Source: Catenulispora sp. MAP5-51 | GTDB lineage: Bacteria; Actinomycetota; Actinomycetes; Streptomycetales; Catenulisporaceae | Assembly (NCBI RefSeq): GCF_041261205.1 | Contig: NZ_JBGCCH010000021.1 | Coordinates: forward strand, 62,001 to 126,000 | DNA length: 64,000 nt | Direction: 5' to 3' | Shown: piece after piece, positions 28,760 through 37,387 of the stretch | Numbering within the stretch: position 1 is the first letter of the stretch | How the letters are laid out: each line of letters begins with the position of its first letter | The notes under the pieces: generated by a model | What the model saw: only the letters and a program-made list of their open reading frames with translations | The model's database searches: none | Told to the model about the DNA's origin: nothing | Translations under genes and position numbers: made by a program

Positions 28760-29473
28760 GTGAGCATCATCGAAGAATCCGTAGAAGCCCCTGTCCCGAC
28801 CGACGCCCATCGGCGTGTCCCGCACCCCGCAGTGCCGAACAGCCGTGCCGGCAGACTGACGTCGCCGCGAGCCTTCCCGGTAGCGCGGGCGACGAAGGGG
28901 CGCGGCGCGGATTTCGTGGTGGTGGCCAACCGGCTGCCGGTCGATCTGGAGCTGCTGGAGGACGGGACGCAGCGGTGGCATCCCAGTCCCGGCGGCCTGG
29001 TCAGCGCGCTGGAGCCGTTTCTGCGCAGTCGCAAGGGCGCGTGGGTCGGCTGGTCGGGTCAGGCCGATCTGGATGTGGCCTCGTTCGAGGACGAGGGCCT
29101 GTCGATGCATCCGGTCCGCTTGTCCGCCGCAGACATCCGGGACTACTACGAGGGTTTCTCTAACGCGACGCTCTGGCCGCTGTACCACGATGTCGTGGTC
29201 AAGCCGGTGTTCGAGCGGGCTTGGTGGGACAGCTACGTCGAGGTCAACCGGCGGTTCGCCGACGCCGCGGCTGCTGCGGCAGGCCCCGGGGCCACTGTGT
29301 GGGTGCAGGACTACCAGCTCCAGCTGGTTCCGGCAATGCTGCGCGAGAAGCGTCCGGACCTGCGGATCGGCTTCTTCCTGCACATACCGTTTCCGCTGTT
29401 CCCGGATCGCGACTGTCTCTTCCGGCGGGAACCCGACAACGCCGATTCCCCTATGTCAGCCTTTTGGCGTTGA
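28760..29473 (+). pseudogene. otsA: Trehalose-6-phosphate synthase, N-terminal half only
   Basis: The frame starts at a GTG after GAAGGGAGAA and carries the GT20 N-terminus: [29 protein letters not shown] and [11 protein letters not shown]...[12 protein letters not shown]. Normal OtsA is about 470-490 residues and continues past HIPFP with the acceptor and UDP-glucose domains. Here homology stops at about residue 216 and ~22 unrelated residues lead to a stop at 29473. The nucleotide-sugar half is missing, so the protein cannot synthesise trehalose-6-phosphate. Confidence 0.87.
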
Positions 29474-29582: not shown

Positions 29583-31790
29583 ATGGAGCCGTTAGCTGAT
29601 ACCGACCCGCGCTCGATCGGCGGTTTCGCCGTCGAGGCGCGTCTGGGGTCCGGTGGCATGGGCGCCGTCTACCTGGGGCGGTCGGCCAGCGGCCGGCTGG
29701 TCGCGATCAAGGTCGTGCACGAGGCGCTGGCCGCCGATCGCGAGTTCCAGGAGCGGTTCGCGCGCGAGGTCGCGGCGATGCGCACGGTCGGCGGGTTCTG
29801 GAGCGCGGCCGTCGTGGACGCCGACCCGCGGGCCCGGCCGCCGTGGCTGGCCACCGAGTTCATCGCCGGGCCGTCGCTGGCCGAGGCCGTGGGCCGGGAC
29901 GGCCCGCTGAACCCGGTGGCCCTGCGCACGCTCGTCTCCGGCCTGGCCGAGGCCCTGGCGGCGATCCACCGGGCCGGGCTGGTGCACCGCGACCTGAAGC
30001 CGTCCAACGTGCTGCTCGCCGCCGACGGCCCGCGGGTCATCGACTTCGGCATCGCCCGGGCCTTCGAGGCGACCTCGCTGACCGCGACGAGCCATGTCGT
30101 CGGCACCCCCGGCTACATGGCGCCGGAGCAGCTGACGCAAGGCACGCTTTCCGCTGCCAGCGACGTGTTCTGCCTCGCGGTCACAATCGCCTACGCCGCG
30201 ACCGGGCGGCCGCCGTTCGGCCTCGGCGGGATGGTCGAGCTCTCGTTCCGCGTGGTCAACGGCGAGCCGGACCTGGCCGGAGTGCCCGACTGGCTGCTGC
30301 CGCTGCTCACCGCCTGCCTGGCCAAGGACCCGGCCGCGCGCCCCACGCCGCATGGGATCCTCCAGTGGCTGCGGGGCGACGGGGGCCAGACGGTGGTCCT
30401 GCCGTCGGTGGCCGGCCCGGGAGCCGCCCCGACGGTGGCTGCGAACGCGGCGGCGCCGATCGGCGTCTGGAATCCGCCCACTCCGGCAGCGGGTTCGGCG
30501 GGCCCGACCCAGCCGTCGAAGCCGGGGCCGGGGGCCTGGAGCGCGGGCGGCGGACCGATCCAGTCGCCGTCGCGGGGCCGTGTCAAGGTCCGGGCGACCC
30601 TGGCCGCCGGCGGCGCGGTCGTCGTGGCCGCGGGCCTGGCCGCGGCTTTCATGGTCATGCCGTCGAGCCACAAGAGCGCCTTGAGCGGCGGTGCCAGTGG
30701 CGGCCCCACCGGCGGCCAGACGACGCAGGACCCCGACGTCGTCGTCCGGACCGGCGCCGACATCACCCTGGCGGGCAACGTCGCGGAGGCCGGCGGTATG
30801 GACGCGCTGGTCGACGTCGCGAAGAAGGAAGGCACGCTCAACCTCATCGCCATCCCGCGGGACTGGGCGAACTACGGCGCCATCATGGACGGCTTCACGG
30901 CGAAGTACGGCATCAAGATCACCGATGCCGACCCCGAAGGCTCCTCGCAGGACGAGATCAACGCGCTGACGGCCCAGCGGGGCGCGGCCAGCGCCCCCGA
31001 CGTCGTCGACATCGGCCTGCTCCCCGCCATCGACGCCCGGCTCCACAACCTGTTCACGGAATACCAGGTCGCCAACTGGAACGCGATCCCGGACTCGCTG
31101 AAGGACCCGCAAGGCGACTACTACGGCGACTTCGGCGGCTACATCTCGATCGGATACGACGCCAAGAAGGTCGCGCACCCGCCGACCAGCCTGAAGGCGA
31201 TGGACGACGTGCAGTACCGGCAAATGATCTCGCTCAACGGCGACCCGAACACCTCGACCGCGGCCTTGGACGGCTTCGTGGCCGCGGGGCTCGCCAACGG
31301 CGGCAGCCTGAGCTACACCAAACCCGGCATCGACTTCTTCCGCCAGCTCAAGGCCGACGGCGTGTTCGTCCCCTCGGCCACCGCCGTCCCCGGCAACCAG
31401 GCCGGCCGGACCCCGATCACGATCGACATGGACTACAACCAGGCCGCGATCGCCGCGGGTCCCCAGGGCGCCGACTGGAAGACCATCATTCCGAGCGACG
31501 CACTGGTGGGGGAGTTCTCCTACCAGGCCATCAGCGCCACCGCCACGCACCCCGCCGCCGCACGGCTGTGGGAGGAATACCTGTACTCGACGGAGGGACA
31601 GAACCTGTTCCTCAAGGGCAAGGTCCGGCCGGTCGAGTTCCTCGATCCCGCGACCGCCAAAGGCGCCGACCCGGCGGCGCTCGCGGCGCTGCCCACTGCC
31701 ACCAAGGTGCCGATGGTGATGTCGGAGTCGCAGATCGCCGACGCCAAGTCCGAGGTGAAGTTCAACTGGCAGGATGTCACCGGGGGCTGA
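29583..31790 (+). CDS. Transmembrane Ser/Thr protein kinase with extracellular solute-binding domain
   Basis: A 735-residue protein. Residues about 12-270 are a complete Hanks-type kinase: glycine loop LGSGGMGAVYLG, lysine 43 in VAIKVV, HRDLKPSN (135-142), DFG (154-156) and GYMAPEQ. A Pro/Gly/Ala linker leads to one membrane helix (about 340-360). Residues about 390-735 form a full bacterial solute-binding protein of the iron/polyamine (PotD/AfuA-like) type: AKKEGTLNLIAIPRDWANYG, DVVDIGLLPA, TEYQVANWNAIP, GYISIGYDAKKV, and LWEEYLYSTEGQNLFLKGKVRPVEF. Kinase inside, binding protein outside: a ligand-sensing receptor kinase. No transporter permease or ATPase gene is adjacent. It begins 110 bp after the broken otsA. 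Confidence 0.9.
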   Translation: MEPLADTDPRSIGGFAVEARLGSGGMGAVYLGRSASGRLVAIKVVHEALAADREFQERFAREVAAMRTVGGFWSAAVVDADPRARPPWLATEFIAGPSLAEAVGRDGPLNPVALRTLVSGLAEALAAIHRAGLVHRDLKPSNVLLAADGPRVIDFGIARAFEATSLTATSHVVGTPGYMAPEQLTQGTLSAASDVFCLAVTIAYAATGRPPFGLGGMVELSFRVVNGEPDLAGVPDWLLPLLTACLAKDPAARPTPHGILQWLRGDGGQTVVLPSVAGPGAAPTVAANAAAPIGVWNPPTPAAGSAGPTQPSKPGPGAWSAGGGPIQSPSRGRVKVRATLAAGGAVVVAAGLAAAFMVMPSSHKSALSGGASGGPTGGQTTQDPDVVVRTGADITLAGNVAEAGGMDALVDVAKKEGTLNLIAIPRDWANYGAIMDGFTAKYGIKITDADPEGSSQDEINALTAQRGAASAPDVVDIGLLPAIDARLHNLFTEYQVANWNAIPDSLKDPQGDYYGDFGGYISIGYDAKKVAHPPTSLKAMDDVQYRQMISLNGDPNTSTAALDGFVAAGLANGGSLSYTKPGIDFFRQLKADGVFVPSATAVPGNQAGRTPITIDMDYNQAAIAAGPQGADWKTIIPSDALVGEFSYQAISATATHPAAARLWEEYLYSTEGQNLFLKGKVRPVEFLDPATAKGADPAALAALPTATKVPMVMSESQIADAKSEVKFNWQDVTGG

Positions 31791-32048
31791 TCCGGTCAGC
31801 ACAAGCACTCCCGAACCCGGCTATATCAGTACCCTGATCAATAGCGCCATCGGTCCAGCTTCCGGCCCGCCGCGAGCATGCGGCCGCGGGGACGCGACGT
31901 CCGATGGCCGCCGGACGTCGCCTTCGAAATGGCGAAAGCTTGTGCAGGTGAAGAAGTCTGACTGCACTGAGCCCACGACCATGACCATGACCATGACCGC
32001 GCCGCACGAGAACGTGGGCCAAAAACCCCGGCGGCTGCGCTGCCGGTG

Positions 32049-33305
32049 ATGACGAGAGCGAAGACACTGATGGCACGGACCGGGGCGGTCACCGCTCCCG
32101 ACACGGACAGCATCGGCCGGGTCCCGGCCGCCGAGGAGGCGGAGAAGCCCCATCCGGGGCTGTTCATCCTCGGCACCACCTTGGCCGTCGGCGCCGTACT
32201 CGCTCTGTTGAGTACGACGATCGTCGCGGTCGGCATGGACCGGCTGTCCGCGGTGTTCTCGACGTCGATCTCGGCTGTGCAGTGGGTCAGCACCGGCTAC
32301 CTGTTGGCGCTGGCCGTCACCATCCCGGTGGCCGGCTGGGCGATGGAGCGGTTCGGCGCCAAAGCGATGTGGCAGTCGGCTTTGGCGGTCTACGTCGCGG
32401 GCTGCGTGATGTCCGCTCTGGCGCCCTCGATCGGCGTGCTGATCGGCTCCCGGGTGGTCCAGGGCGTCGGTGCGGCGATGTTCGAACCGATCATGCTGAC
32501 TCTGCTGGCCACGGCGGCCGGCCCGAAGCGGGCGACCACGGTGATGAGCCTGGTCCAGATCCCGATCACCCTGGCCCCGGTCTTCGGGCCGATGGTCGGC
32601 GGCCTGCTCGTCGACCACCTGAGCTGGCATTGGCTGTTCTGGTTCAACGTGCCGATCGGTGTGGTCTGCGCCGTCATGGCACACAAGGTGCTGCCGGCCG
32701 ACCCGCCGCGCTCCCAGCGTGCGGCCTCCAAGCTGGACGCGACCGGCCTGGCACTGCTGCCGCTGGGCCTGGCCGCGCTGCTGCTGGGCTTCTCGCAGAT
32801 CGCTGACAGCGGCGGCGTCGGCTCGGTCGGCGTCTGGCTGCCGCTCGTGCTGGGTGCGGTCCTGGTGGCCGGGTACGTGGTGCACGCGCTGCGCACCAGC
32901 ATTGTCCCGCTGATCGACGTCCGGCTGTTCCTCACCGGGCGGTTCTCGGCCTCGGTGCTGGGCGCCTTCCTGTTCGGCGCCTCGGTGTACGGCTCCACTT
33001 TCGTGCTGCCGCTCTTCTTCCAGCAGGGCCGGGGCTTCAGCGCCTGGGACGCGGGCCTGCTTCTGGCCCCGCAGGGCGTCGGCACGGTGCTGATCCTGCC
33101 GGCGGTGGGCAGGCTCACCGCCCGGTTCGGTCCGCGCGTGCTGGTGGTCTCCGGCATGGCTGTCGCGGTGCTCGGCACCATCGCCTATACCCAGGTGGAC
33201 CCGCACAATGGCGATTCCAGTCCGCCGATCGACACCCATCCCGGCGGCTACCCCGGCGGCGGTGAGTACCGCACCGTGCGGGAGACCGACGATCGCGAAC
33301 GCTGA
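32049..33305 (+). CDS. MFS transporter (DHA2/EmrB type), truncated after TM11
   Basis: 418 residues. The first ~385 are a 14-helix drug:proton antiporter: VQWVSTGYLLALAVTIPVAGW (motif after TM1), GSRVVQGVGAAMFEP and LAPVFGPMVGGLLVDHLSWHWLFWFN (motif C region). Eleven helices can be counted to GMAVAVLGTIAYTQVD. The last three are replaced by a ~33-residue hydrophilic tail rich in P, G, D and R. The family is usually ~470-500 residues. Loss of TM12-14 makes transport doubtful. GTG 32046 and ATG 32070 are alternative starts. Confidence 0.8.
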   Translation: MTRAKTLMARTGAVTAPDTDSIGRVPAAEEAEKPHPGLFILGTTLAVGAVLALLSTTIVAVGMDRLSAVFSTSISAVQWVSTGYLLALAVTIPVAGWAMERFGAKAMWQSALAVYVAGCVMSALAPSIGVLIGSRVVQGVGAAMFEPIMLTLLATAAGPKRATTVMSLVQIPITLAPVFGPMVGGLLVDHLSWHWLFWFNVPIGVVCAVMAHKVLPADPPRSQRAASKLDATGLALLPLGLAALLLGFSQIADSGGVGSVGVWLPLVLGAVLVAGYVVHALRTSIVPLIDVRLFLTGRFSASVLGAFLFGASVYGSTFVLPLFFQQGRGFSAWDAGLLLAPQGVGTVLILPAVGRLTARFGPRVLVVSGMAVAVLGTIAYTQVDPHNGDSSPPIDTHPGGYPGGGEYRTVRETDDRER

Positions 33306-33442
33306 GAGCGGCGGGCCGTCGCACCGCAGTCGCACTGGCATACACGCTCGCAAACCGGTTATCGGTGAGACGGGGAAATCGTCGTACCCGGTTTGTCCCG
33401 AAATGTGGTTTGGTGGAGGTCGAACAAAGGGGCAGGTGGACC

Positions 33443-36400
33443 ATGCGAACCGCGGATCCCAGCCGCGAGCGCTTCGGCGCCGAGTTGGCGGCGGCGATCG
33501 ACCACGGCGGCCAGATGGGCAAGCAGTTCGCCGGGTACGACTGGGCCGGCCACAGCCTCGGCGAGCCCTCCGCCTGGCCGCCGCAGTGGCGCACGGCTGT
33601 CGCCACGGCCCTCACCTCGAAGTTCCCGATCGTGGTCTGGCTGGGGCCGCAGCTCCACCTGGTCTACAACGACGCCTACGTCCCCATGCTCGGAGAGAAG
33701 CATCCGGCCGCGTTGGGGGAGACCGGGGAAGCGGTGTGGTGGGACATCTGGCCCACCGTCGGCCCGATGCTCGCCGGGGTGATGGACACCGGTGAGGCCA
33801 CATGGTCGGCCGACCTGATGCTCGCGCTCGTCGCCGACGGCCGTCCCTGGGAGCGGTACTTCACCTTCGGCTACAACCCGATCATGGGTCAGACCGGGGA
33901 GCCGTGCGGGGTCTTCTGCGCGGTGACCGAGACCACCGAGCGGGTCCTGAGCGAACGCCGCATGCGCCTGTTGTCCGACATGGACGGGCAGCTGCTTCCT
34001 ACTCGGACGGCCCAGCAGGTGGTCGACGCCGCCGGCCGCGTATGCGACGGAAACCACCCGGACGTGCCCTTCCTGGCCGTCTACACCGACACTGGCGAGG
34101 GTGACGGCGACGCTCGGCTGACCGGGGCCACCGAGTCGGTCCGCGACCTGCTCCCGCCAGCCGTGCACACGCTGCTGCCCGAGCACGGCCTGCCGCCGGG
34201 CGCGGTCCACGAACTCGACGTGGGCCACGGCCCCCGCTCGCCGAGGGCCCATGCCTCCACCGCGCTGCTGATCCCTCTGCCCGGGCAGAACACCGAGGAC
34301 TACCTTCTGCTCGGCTTGAACCCGCACCGTCCGCTCGACTCCCAGTATCGGGAGTTCTGCCGCCTGCTGTCCGACCAGATCGCCGCCGCCCTGACCGCGG
34401 CCCGCTCGTTCGAGGGCGAACACGAGCGGGCGAACGCGCTGGCGCAGCTGGACGCGGCCAAGACCGTCTTCCTCACCAACACCAGCCACGAGTTCCGCAC
34501 CCCGCTCACCCTGGTCCTCGGCCCGCTGGAAGACACCCTGGCCACCGAGACCGACCCGGAGCGGCGCGAGACGCTGGAGACCGCGCTGCGCAACGCCGCC
34601 CGGCTGGAGCGCCTGGTCGACTCGCTGCTGCAGTTCGCACGCACCGAAGCCGGGCGTGCCCGGCCCCAGCCCGTCGCCCTGGATCTGGGGGCCTTGACGG
34701 CTCAGATCGCCTCCTCGTTCACCGAACTGTGTGCCCGCGCGGGTCTGGAGCTGGTGATCGACTGCGCCCCGACCCCGGCCGAGGTCGATCCGGAGATGTG
34801 GGAGACGATCGTCCTGAACCTGCTGTCGAACGCGGTGAAGTTCACCCCGGCCGGCCGGATCGGTGTTCGTGCCCGCCGCCGTCCGGACGGCGGGGTCGAG
34901 GTCACCGTGGCCGACACCGGCGTCGGCATCGCCCCCCACGACCAGAAGCACTTGTTCGAGCGCTTCTACCGGGCCGACAACTCCCGGACGCGCAGCGTCG
35001 AGGGCAGCGGGATCGGCCTGTCGCTGGTCCGCAGCCTCGTCGAACTCCACGGCGGGACCATCGGCGTCGACAGCACCCTCGACGAGGGCACGAGCGTCCG
35101 CATCGAGCTTCCGGCCGCGGCCGATCAGGACCTGGCCATCCCGTCCCACCCGGTGCCCGTCCTGCCCGCCAGGCACACGGACGCCTTCCTGGCCGAGGCG
35201 TCGAGCTGGATCGACGTCGCGCCCGGCCGGCGGCCGCGCGATGCGGGGGAGCGCCGGGAGCTCCGGGACCGGCCGACGGTGCTGATCGCCGACGACAACG
35301 CCGACATGCGCCGCCACCTGGAACGCATCTGCGCCGCGCACTGGAACGTCGAGACGGTGGGCGACGGCCGGGCCGCGCTGGCCCGGTTGCGCGCGCGCCG
35401 CCCCGACGTGCTGGTCACCGACGTCATGATGCCCGCCCTGGACGGGCTCGGCCTGGTCGCGGCGATCCGCGACGATCCCAAGCTCAGGAACCTGCCGGTG
35501 ATCATCCTGTCGGCCCGGGCCGGGATGGAGGAAGCCGGTACCGGCCTGGCCGCCGGAGCCGACGACTACCTGCCCAAACCCTTCCGGAGCACAGACCTCG
35601 TCAACCGGATCGCCGCCCGGCTGCACGCCGCCGGCCGCGAGCGCGACCGGCACCGGCGCCAACAGGCCCGGACCCGGCGTGCCGCGCTGCTGGGTGATCT
35701 CTCGGCCGCCGTCTCGGCCGCCGCCTCCACTCGCGACATCCTCACCGCCCTGCTGACCTCGCCCGCGGCGCTGGGGGCGACCACCGCGTGTCTGGGCATC
35801 CTGGACACGCAGCGCGCCGCCCTGCGCCTCACCCACGCCGAAGCGGACGGCGCGGACTCGGACGGCGAGGACACGGTCGAGCTCAGCGGGGGCGGACTGC
35901 TGGCGCGCGTCGCCCGCACCGGCGAATCGATCGTCGTCGAGGACACGGAGTCGGATCCTCGGTTCCCCACAGCCCTCGAGGGCCCCGACTTTGGTCCCGA
36001 CCGCGACCGTTCCCATGACAGCGACAGCGGCCCCGGCCCCGACCCCGGCCTGCTCCGCGCCCGCGCCGCGATCCTGCACCCGGTGCGCGACACCCGCGGC
36101 ATCGTCGTCGGTGTCCTGGCGCTGTCCTGGCCGGACCCGCGCGCCTTCACCGTCGAGGACCGCGACTTGGCGCTCGCCGCCGCGGCGGCCATCGGCCGCG
36201 CCCTGGAGCGCACCGACATCGCCGAACGCGAGCACCTCATCGCCATCGGCATGCAGGAACACCATCTCGACCTCGACCGGCGCTCCGGCGCCGCGGTCCT
36301 GGCCGCCCGGTACGAACCGGCGGCCGAGCTCATGCATGTCGGAGGCGACTGGTACCTCGCGGCCTCACCGCCCCGGGGGGACCAGGTCGCGGTGAGCGTC

Positions 36401-37387
36401 GGCGACGCCGTCGGCCACGGCCTGGCCTCGGCCACCGTGATGAGCCGGCTGCGCTCGGCGGCCGCGGCGGCCACCCTCACCGATCCCGACCCCCGACAGG
36501 TCATGCACCAGCTGGACAGCTACGCCGCGAGCATGCCCGACGCCACCTGCACCACGGTCTCCTACGCCCTGCTCGACGCGCGCACCGGCACTCTCGACTA
36601 CGCCTGCGCCGGGCATCCGTACCCGCTGCTGGTGACTGAGGACGGCACCACGCGCTACCTGACCGACGGACGCCGCCCGCCTCTGGCCGTCGGCGCCACC
36701 GGCTCTGTGCGACCCGGTCGTGACCACCTGCCGCCCGGCGCGCTGCTCCTGCTCTACACCGACGGCCTGATCGAGCGGCGCGGCGAGGACCTGGAGGCCG
36801 GTTTCGACCGCCTCGCCGAGGCCGCGGCAACCGCCGCCCGGCTGCCGGCCGAGCAGGCCTGCGGCTATCTGCTCAGTGCCCTCGCCCCGCCCGACGGCTT
36901 CCACGACGACGTGGCGGTCCTCGCCCTGCGCCCGGTCGGCACCACCTCCACCAGCCTGGTCGCCACCCATCCCGCCGACCCGGCCACGCTGCCGGGACTG
37001 CGGGACCGGATCAGATCCTGGCTCGAATCCCAGGAACTGGATCCCGCGACCGCCCACAACATCCTGGTGTGCACGGGCGAAGCCCTGGCCAGCGCGGTGG
37101 AGCACGGCGCGCACGCGAAGCCCAGACAGCACATCAGCCTGGAGATGTTCGCCGACGCTGACCTCATTCGCACCACGGTCACCGAACCGGGCCACTGGAC
37201 CAGCCAGACCCAACCGGATCAGGACGTTCCCGCAGCGAGTCTGACTCTCATTCGCGGGCTGTCAGACCACGCTCGCATCGATCGCGGCCCGCGCGGCACC
37301 TGCTACACCATGCACCACTGCCGCACCCCCGTCACCGAGCCGCAAGCCGCGTCGGCCACCGCCTCGCCGCATCGGCAAACGGGCTGA
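33443..37387 (+). CDS. Hybrid sensor: PAS-GAF-histidine kinase-receiver-GAF-SpoIIE-ATPase
   Basis: A 1314-residue cytoplasmic protein combining a two-component kinase with a partner-switching output. Order: PAS-like (about 45-170, IVVWLGPQLHLVYNDAY), GAF (about 190-325), HisKA with H349 in NTSHEFRTPLTLVLGP, HATPase (about 450-575, NLLSNAVKFTPAG and GSGIGLSLVRSLV), receiver (about 612-730, LIADDNADMR, D660 in VLVTDVMMP, YLPKPF), a second GAF (about 760-935), SpoIIE/PP2C (about 950-1145, GGDWYLA, GDAVGHGLASA, FHDDVAVL) and a C-terminal HATPase_c_2 (about 1165-1275). The last ATPase has GEALASAVEHG, a serine where the N-box asparagine should be. ATG at 33443 follows AAAGGGG. It could set the phosphorylation of STAS proteins here. 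Confidence 0.92.
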   Translation: MRTADPSRERFGAELAAAIDHGGQMGKQFAGYDWAGHSLGEPSAWPPQWRTAVATALTSKFPIVVWLGPQLHLVYNDAYVPMLGEKHPAALGETGEAVWWDIWPTVGPMLAGVMDTGEATWSADLMLALVADGRPWERYFTFGYNPIMGQTGEPCGVFCAVTETTERVLSERRMRLLSDMDGQLLPTRTAQQVVDAAGRVCDGNHPDVPFLAVYTDTGEGDGDARLTGATESVRDLLPPAVHTLLPEHGLPPGAVHELDVGHGPRSPRAHASTALLIPLPGQNTEDYLLLGLNPHRPLDSQYREFCRLLSDQIAAALTAARSFEGEHERANALAQLDAAKTVFLTNTSHEFRTPLTLVLGPLEDTLATETDPERRETLETALRNAARLERLVDSLLQFARTEAGRARPQPVALDLGALTAQIASSFTELCARAGLELVIDCAPTPAEVDPEMWETIVLNLLSNAVKFTPAGRIGVRARRRPDGGVEVTVADTGVGIAPHDQKHLFERFYRADNSRTRSVEGSGIGLSLVRSLVELHGGTIGVDSTLDEGTSVRIELPAAADQDLAIPSHPVPVLPARHTDAFLAEASSWIDVAPGRRPRDAGERRELRDRPTVLIADDNADMRRHLERICAAHWNVETVGDGRAALARLRARRPDVLVTDVMMPALDGLGLVAAIRDDPKLRNLPVIILSARAGMEEAGTGLAAGADDYLPKPFRSTDLVNRIAARLHAAGRERDRHRRQQARTRRAALLGDLSAAVSAAASTRDILTALLTSPAALGATTACLGILDTQRAALRLTHAEADGADSDGEDTVELSGGGLLARVARTGESIVVEDTESDPRFPTALEGPDFGPDRDRSHDSDSGPGPDPGLLRARAAILHPVRDTRGIVVGVLALSWPDPRAFTVEDRDLALAAAAAIGRALERTDIAEREHLIAIGMQEHHLDLDRRSGAAVLAARYEPAAELMHVGGDWYLAASPPRGDQVAVSVGDAVGHGLASATVMSRLRSAAAAATLTDPDPRQVMHQLDSYAASMPDATCTTVSYALLDARTGTLDYACAGHPYPLLVTEDGTTRYLTDGRRPPLAVGATGSVRPGRDHLPPGALLLLYTDGLIERRGEDLEAGFDRLAEAAATAARLPAEQACGYLLSALAPPDGFHDDVAVLALRPVGTTSTSLVATHPADPATLPGLRDRIRSWLESQELDPATAHNILVCTGEALASAVEHGAHAKPRQHISLEMFADADLIRTTVTEPGHWTSQTQPDQDVPAASLTLIRGLSDHARIDRGPRGTCYTMHHCRTPVTEPQAASATASPHRQTG

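Follow-up and report, generated by a model that had tools for sequence, protein, structure and literature searches.

The window analysed here, a stretch of 64,000 nucleotides from the soil actinobacterium Catenulispora sp. MAP5-51, contains a gene that encodes a Ser/Thr protein kinase and a solute-binding protein (SBP) in one polypeptide (Table 1). Its frame is unbroken, with no internal stops, and third-position GC hardly differs between its two parts (kinase 0.948, SBP 0.942), so that one coding signal runs across both halves. The source assembly consists of 87 contigs, which leaves room for an assembly or gene-finding artefact that joined two separate genes. The unbroken frame argues against such an error, as does a sister kinase that is joined to another SBP in one frame in another genome (see below). 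Moreover, the SBP half shares only 56% identity with the single other copy of this SBP in the genome (at G000:C16) and is therefore not a mis-joined copy of it. We consider an artefact scarcely credible.

Table 1. Features of the kinase-SBP fusion gene, given as positions in the window and residues of the encoded protein.
Feature	Position	Strand	Evidence
Possible ribosome-binding site, G-rich, 7 bases 5' of the start codon	29569..29575	+	Sequence reading, putative
Fusion gene, 735 aa plus stop	29583..31790	+	Frame, Pfam, codon-position GC
Hanks-type Ser/Thr kinase domain, residues 16-261	29628..30365	+	Pfam Pkinase E 1.7e-39, motifs, model
Juxtamembrane linker, residues 262-337, Pro/Gly/Ala-rich, basic RGRVKVR at its end	30366..30593	+	Sequence; pLDDT <50 from residue 267
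Predicted single membrane segment, residues 338-359	30594..30659	+	Kyte-Doolittle 2.07 over 21 residues
Predicted outside stalk, residues 360-405	30660..30797	+	Sequence alignment, model
Solute-binding domain SBP_bac_6, residues 406-735	30798..31787	+	Pfam; model pLDDT 91.5; 5t1p Z 36.2

By its intact catalytic Lys, HRD, DFG and APE-type motifs, the N-terminal half is classed as a Hanks-type kinase. An initial annotation of this DNA had described the kinase motifs as intact and, indeed, within the Pkinase match we find a GSGGMG loop, K43, E62, H135-R136-D137, N142, D154-F155-G156 and P181-E182. The kinase domain is also modelled with high confidence in the full-length protein, residues 159-170 excepted. 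The nearest curated model is that of AfsK of Streptomyces (NF053615), which scores 307.4 bits over residues 1-258, far under its cut-off of 1300, and membership of that family was rejected. AfsK carries PQQ-type repeats, and the window protein has an SBP where AfsK has its sensor region. Membership of the StpK7 family (NF052427) was likewise rejected, with 118.5 bits against a cut-off of 900, a match to residues 8-212 only, and an SBP_bac_6 ectodomain as opposed to the SBP_bac_3 domain of the two StpK7 proteins that we found (L222 and L223). The model for the PASTA kinases PknB/PrkC (NF033483) gave 176.4 bits against a cut-off of 450, from the kinase part only, and this family was rejected as well. 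There is no PASTA match in the protein and its ectodomain is an SBP, in keeping with the earlier proposal of a layout unlike that of PASTA or propeller kinases.

Hydropathy analysis found one strong hydrophobic segment in the whole protein, best at residues 339-359, which agrees with the single membrane helix that had been placed near residues 340-360. The segment is directly preceded by the basic RGRVKVR stretch, and from these two features the kinase is predicted to lie inside and the SBP outside. In the full-length model, all of residues 267-390 have pLDDT <50 and no helix is formed at 338-359, so the predicted membrane segment rests on hydropathy. The alignment behind that model has almost no depth over the linker and the membrane segment, and the model therefore neither confirms nor refutes the segment. 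Eight full-length kinase rows in the same alignment extend their tails into the SBP columns, and some others do so briefly, which may weaken the model; our claims on the SBP domain are thus based on a separate model of that domain.

The ectodomain, as judged from this separate model, is a complete, full-length SBP with a two-lobe fold. Pfam matches residues 488-698 to SBP_bac_6 (E 7.4e-16, 58.8 bits versus a cut-off of 24.6), and AlphaFold modelling of the domain alone with 57 relatives gave a mean pLDDT of 91.5 and a pTM of 0.89; the domain is confident in the full-length model too. Among solved structures, the best match is 5t1p_F of Campylobacter jejuni (Foldseek, VIA-align 2; Z 36.2, rmsd 2.8, 317 aligned), and a profile search of solved sequences agrees with this structural matching (5t1p, E 2.6e-63). 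The ectodomain shares its SBP family and fold with 5t1p and with stand-alone relatives. Further structural matches are MctA (7f6t, Z 27.9), 4r6y (Z 27.4) and AfuA (4r72, Z 26.9), with PotD-like structures weaker (4eqb, Z 25.4). A full-length PotD/AfuA-like fold had been proposed for residues 390-735. The assignment to the SBP superfamily and its completeness both hold, although the nearest relatives are SBP_bac_6 proteins of the 5t1p type rather than PotD. The N-terminus has no lipoprotein or secretion signal of the sort found on SBPs of ABC transporters, and carries a kinase, a linker and one hydrophobic segment instead. Whereas a lipobox-like motif lies upstream in 85 of 95 stand-alone loci, the fused copy is without one, and its stalk (residues 360-405) occupies the place of the signal peptide and spacer of the stand-alone relatives.

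We compared the fused SBP with its stand-alone relatives. The second SBP copy in this genome is the first gene of a complete ABC operon, ahead of genes for two BPD_transp_1 permeases and an ABC_tran/TOBE_2 ATPase. The fused copy, by contrast, is without an ABC operon: no ABC part was found among the 18 neighbouring ORFs scanned, which are not an exhaustive set. The earlier statement that no permease lies nearby thus stands for ABC components but not for transporters at large, as the gene directly downstream on the same strand (32046-33305) encodes an MFS transporter (Pfam MFS_1, E 4e-43), a possible partner or output of the fusion. After the MFS gene, positions 33365-37387 encode a large hybrid histidine kinase/SpoIIE phosphatase of 1340 aa with PAS, HisKA, HATPase, receiver, GAF and SpoIIE phosphatase domains and a second HATPase. 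The presence of a parent-type transporter elsewhere in the genome goes beyond the initial annotation, as does the sister kinase with an OpuAC ectodomain described below.

SBP matches were present in 35 of the 60 genomes searched, ten of which are Catenulispora (the window genome included). Eight of the nine other Catenulispora genomes, a set that includes the metagenome-assembled genomes (MAGs) Bin6.9 (G005) and Bin1.32 (G003), have the SBP, and none was found in G007, which is 77% complete. At the SBP loci of these eight genomes (L090-L097) there is no kinase, and the kinase fusion of SBP_bac_6 was seen in one of the ten Catenulispora genomes. A maximum-likelihood tree of 58 SBPs groups the fused copy with nine Catenulispora stand-alone SBPs (100/99) and places it as their sister (93/92). 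On an end branch of 1.02, against at most 0.07 for the nine, the placing of this long branch is less sure by the tree tool's own warning. Within the nine, eight share 85-96% identity with the remaining one, and the fused copy shares only 54-57% with each. An origin of the fused SBP outside the genus is not supported, given the 100/99 grouping. From its tree position and these identities, the fused sensor would seem to have arisen by duplication of the binding protein that serves the transporter and to have diverged far more rapidly.

The fused SBP departs from the stand-alone SBPs at 16 of 97 positions that are conserved in at least 90% of 57 proteins (the raw count was 17 of 98, including one at the very start that is an alignment artefact and was removed). 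Left-out stand-alone SBPs change a median of two such positions, and the count in three distant ones (23, 20 and 19) reaches or exceeds that of the fused copy. The changes include W616M, Y517F and P655T, at each of which the original residue is present in 57 of 57 stand-alone SBPs, and Y646S; D617 and Y618 of the DWDY motif are retained. FbpA-like ferric-binding proteins use tandem tyrosines as iron ligands, and we take the tyrosine run of the ferric-binding protein 7li0 to be the residues that hold iron. An HMMER alignment, which is sequence-based and not structure-based, pairs the YYY run of 7li0 with D617, Y618 and N619, one Tyr out of three. The Trp column lies directly before this run, and the W616 change is therefore likely at the ligand cleft, which makes a change of the ligand site in the fused SBP likely.

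Candidate ligands put forward in the initial annotation were iron, a polyamine or an organophosphate. The nature of the ligand was approached through curated models, none of which reached its cut-off for a specific ligand on the window protein. Assignment as a 2-aminoethylphosphonate SBP was rejected, NF011620 scoring 30.9 bits and TIGR03227 20.9 bits against cut-offs of 310 and 395.3. For the ATPase beside the stand-alone SBP, the best model is PhnT2 (2-aminoethylphosphonate; 399.1 bits, under the cut-off of 457.7), followed by polyamine (334.4 bits) and ferric (312.8 bits) models. A model tally of 84 neighbour ORFs from 14 operon regions was filled by ABC ATPase models and was uninformative on the ligand.

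One reading of these data is that the fused SBP retains its parent's ligand, so that the receptor would report the nutrient taken up by the ABC transporter and couple uptake to phosphorylation. This would fit the sister position of the fused SBP in the tree of stand-alone Catenulispora SBPs and the 81 of 97 conserved positions that it keeps, D617 and Y618 included, yet it sits poorly with the loss of W616 and Y517, both otherwise invariant, with the change at Y646, and with the probable location of the Trp column at the ligand cleft. We regard a retained ligand as rather unlikely. The fact that conserved positions are changed across the domain may also suggest an ectodomain that binds no small molecule and instead docks either another protein or the permease that belongs to the stand-alone SBP, in which case the kinase would track transporter activity. 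A precedent for protein contact exists in GlnH-GlnX-PknG, where an SBP acts on a Ser/Thr kinase (PMC6069109). Against docking stand the full length of the domain, its confident model and the retention of most conserved positions, which make it improbable. Freed from feeding a permease and with a site that seems changed, the SBP probably senses a compound related, but not identical, to the cargo of the parent transporter. A direct ligand receptor with shifted specificity is the most likely prediction.

A long branch, however, can also mean loss of function, and the surroundings of the gene show a rearrangement. Upstream of it, positions 28760-29473 hold a truncated GT20 gene of the trehalose-phosphate synthase type, which covers Pfam positions 2-176 of 473 only. 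A stretch of 500 bases is 88% identical to G000:C1:182112-182611, where it lies in a 513-aa frame (L322 3099-4640), and to the left of the truncated gene two stretches match G008:C16 in kept order. The GT20 match stops at 29396, 186 bases short of the kinase start; a rearrangement thus took place here. The fusion could thus be a young, decaying or non-functional gene, produced by chance near a rearrangement scar and bound to be lost, and its occurrence in one of ten Catenulispora genomes and the fast branch of its SBP would agree with this. A decaying gene would not be expected to show an intact frame, a strong coding signal in both halves and complete kinase motifs, nor to keep 84% of its conserved positions at an overall identity of 54-57%, which argues against decay. 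We judge this alternative to be very improbable.

To place the kinase half, we searched its own genome, the ten genomes of the genus and 293 genomes of the order, and ran a pattern scan. The nearest kinase among these, L252 (466-2397), is from the MAG Catenulispora sp. Bin6.9 (G005:C522); we found no name for it in print. It is the best match to the window kinase half among the ten Catenulispora genomes, and the two kinases are 69% identical over 265 columns. When the L252 kinase was searched against the 293 genomes of the order, the window gene was its best other match (374.8 bits, the next being 330.3). In a tree of 49 kinases the pair forms a 100/99 clade, far from StpK7. The pattern scan, which used exact peptide patterns and kept the best 80, did not return L252 and can miss relatives.

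L252 resembles the window protein in its kinase and in a hydrophobic segment (residues 297-320) ahead of an SBP, but its ectodomain is OpuAC (residues 378-640, Pfam E 3.8e-50) and not SBP_bac_6. Alignment of the two SBPs scored 50, whereas 200 shuffles reached up to 60, so they are not alignable above shuffled scores. Among 148 genomes of the class, 101 contain OpuAC relatives of L252. Many of these sit in frames of 300-400 residues, the length to be expected of a stand-alone SBP, and two are in the window genome, the best 58% identical. The MAG that contains L252 is split into about 980 contigs, and the gene begins 466 bases away from the end of its contig. It may thus be a contaminant, although its kinase groups with that of the window. 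As the nearest kinase found bears OpuAC, one kinase lineage carries two different transporter-type ectodomains.

How widespread are such fusions? None of 98 other loci with the ectodomain's SBP family had a kinase match (E <=1e-5). These loci were drawn from a set of 80, two of which are the window gene, and 20 chosen for long open frames; at least three genes occur twice among them (L002/L119, L009/L094 and L010/L092), and they are part of the matches listed, with SBP matches in 177 of 391 and 112 of 394 genomes. On the kinase side, sensor regions vary widely in the near group of the window kinase. The C-terminal parts of 94 of 100 near kinases included 10 Laminin_G_3, 6 PQQ_2 and 3 WD40 among the 25 commonest families, and a further Pfam tally covered 49 long C-terminal parts chosen by length and repeat motifs. 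Ten long C-terminal parts of kinases from the window genome gave PQQ, PASTA, WD40, ricin-type or no Pfam matches, and no SBP. As the tallies show the 25 commonest families and hide single cases, we ran three SBP profiles over 146 kinases, comprising 42 kinases from the window genome (out of 46 matches there), 94 near ones from the order and the pattern scan and 10 from the genus. The profiles represented SBP_bac_6 (our SBP alignment), OpuAC (L252 and up to 30 relatives) and SBP_bac_3 (two StpK7 proteins), and they matched three proteins: the window gene, L252 and L072 (6841-7854; Streptomyces triticirhizae, NZ_RFFJ01000004.1). The last is an AfsK-like kinase whose C-terminal part is of the SBP_bac_3 type (E 3.1e-12); judged by match, its kinase is nearer to the window kinase than StpK7 is.

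Fusions of a kinase with an SBP are not themselves new. The initial annotation took the layout to be unusual, yet MSMEG_1200 (StpK7) of Mycobacterium smegmatis has been described as a single kinase-SBP polypeptide together with a further 260 in InterPro (PMC6069109), and these 260 may include SBP_bac_6 or OpuAC cases. StpK7 shares with the window protein a Hanks-type kinase and an SBP in one chain, but its SBP is SBP_bac_3 and the two kinases are widely separated in the tree. It is reported to phosphorylate MSMEG_1198, which regulates a BREX-like island, and to determine susceptibility to phage TM4, and the account of it that we reviewed names no stimulus (PMC13355554). Two of the 148 genomes from the class score above the cut-off of the StpK7 model (G393, L222; G437, L223), both with SBP_bac_3. 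The same two genomes hold stretches like the SBP half of StpK7 without a kinase (profile positions 292-600 and 279-600, in frames of 314 and 330), which may by analogy parallel the proposed capture of an SBP. A survey confined to siderophore clusters lists Pkinase with SBP_bac_3 in 5 of 55 genes in its Table 1, and no kinase with SBP_bac_6 (27 genes) or OpuAC (148) in that table (PMC13293324). Among open-licence papers in PMC, we found none that describes a Ser/Thr kinase joined to SBP_bac_6 or OpuAC. An SBP also exerts transmembrane control over a Ser/Thr kinase in GlnH-GlnX-PknG (PMC6069109, PMC9769921), but through three separate proteins, and PknG has neither a membrane helix nor an outside domain (PMC6069109). 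The class of kinase-SBP fusions is therefore already known; what is new is the SBP_bac_6 ectodomain, its stand-alone sister in the same genome and the exchange of ectodomains within a kinase clade.

Taken together, we think it likely that the fusion is a single-pass receptor Ser/Thr kinase with a duplicated and re-tuned ABC-transporter SBP as its outside sensor. Direct transmembrane sensing, as suggested in the initial annotation, would be the natural reading of an intact kinase, a hydropathy-predicted membrane segment and a complete SBP. A small molecule outside the cell would close the two-lobed SBP, closure would alter how far apart two membrane-bound receptor molecules lie or how they pair, and the kinase domains inside would then phosphorylate each other and their targets. 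For this scheme we infer membrane topology, ligand binding, closure-driven dimerisation, kinase activity and targets. More tentatively, one Catenulispora kinase lineage may serve as a receptor chassis that repeatedly takes ABC-transporter SBPs (SBP_bac_6 here, OpuAC in its sister) as exchangeable outside domains, with the captured sensor then freed from its permease and evolving fast towards a new ligand; we would put this at somewhat less than an even chance.

If true, such a chassis would represent a natural conversion of a transporter into a receptor, with the stand-alone sister and the converted copy side by side in one genome. The activating signal of bacterial Ser/Thr kinases has been called an outstanding question (PMC6069109). 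Here, the sensor is of a type that binds small molecules, and the unfused sister SBP in the same genome provides an internal control. The sister kinase, moreover, bears another SBP. Through ligand screens and domain swaps, the stimulus of a bacterial receptor kinase could thus be found directly, and the fusion could show how a transport protein becomes a sensor.
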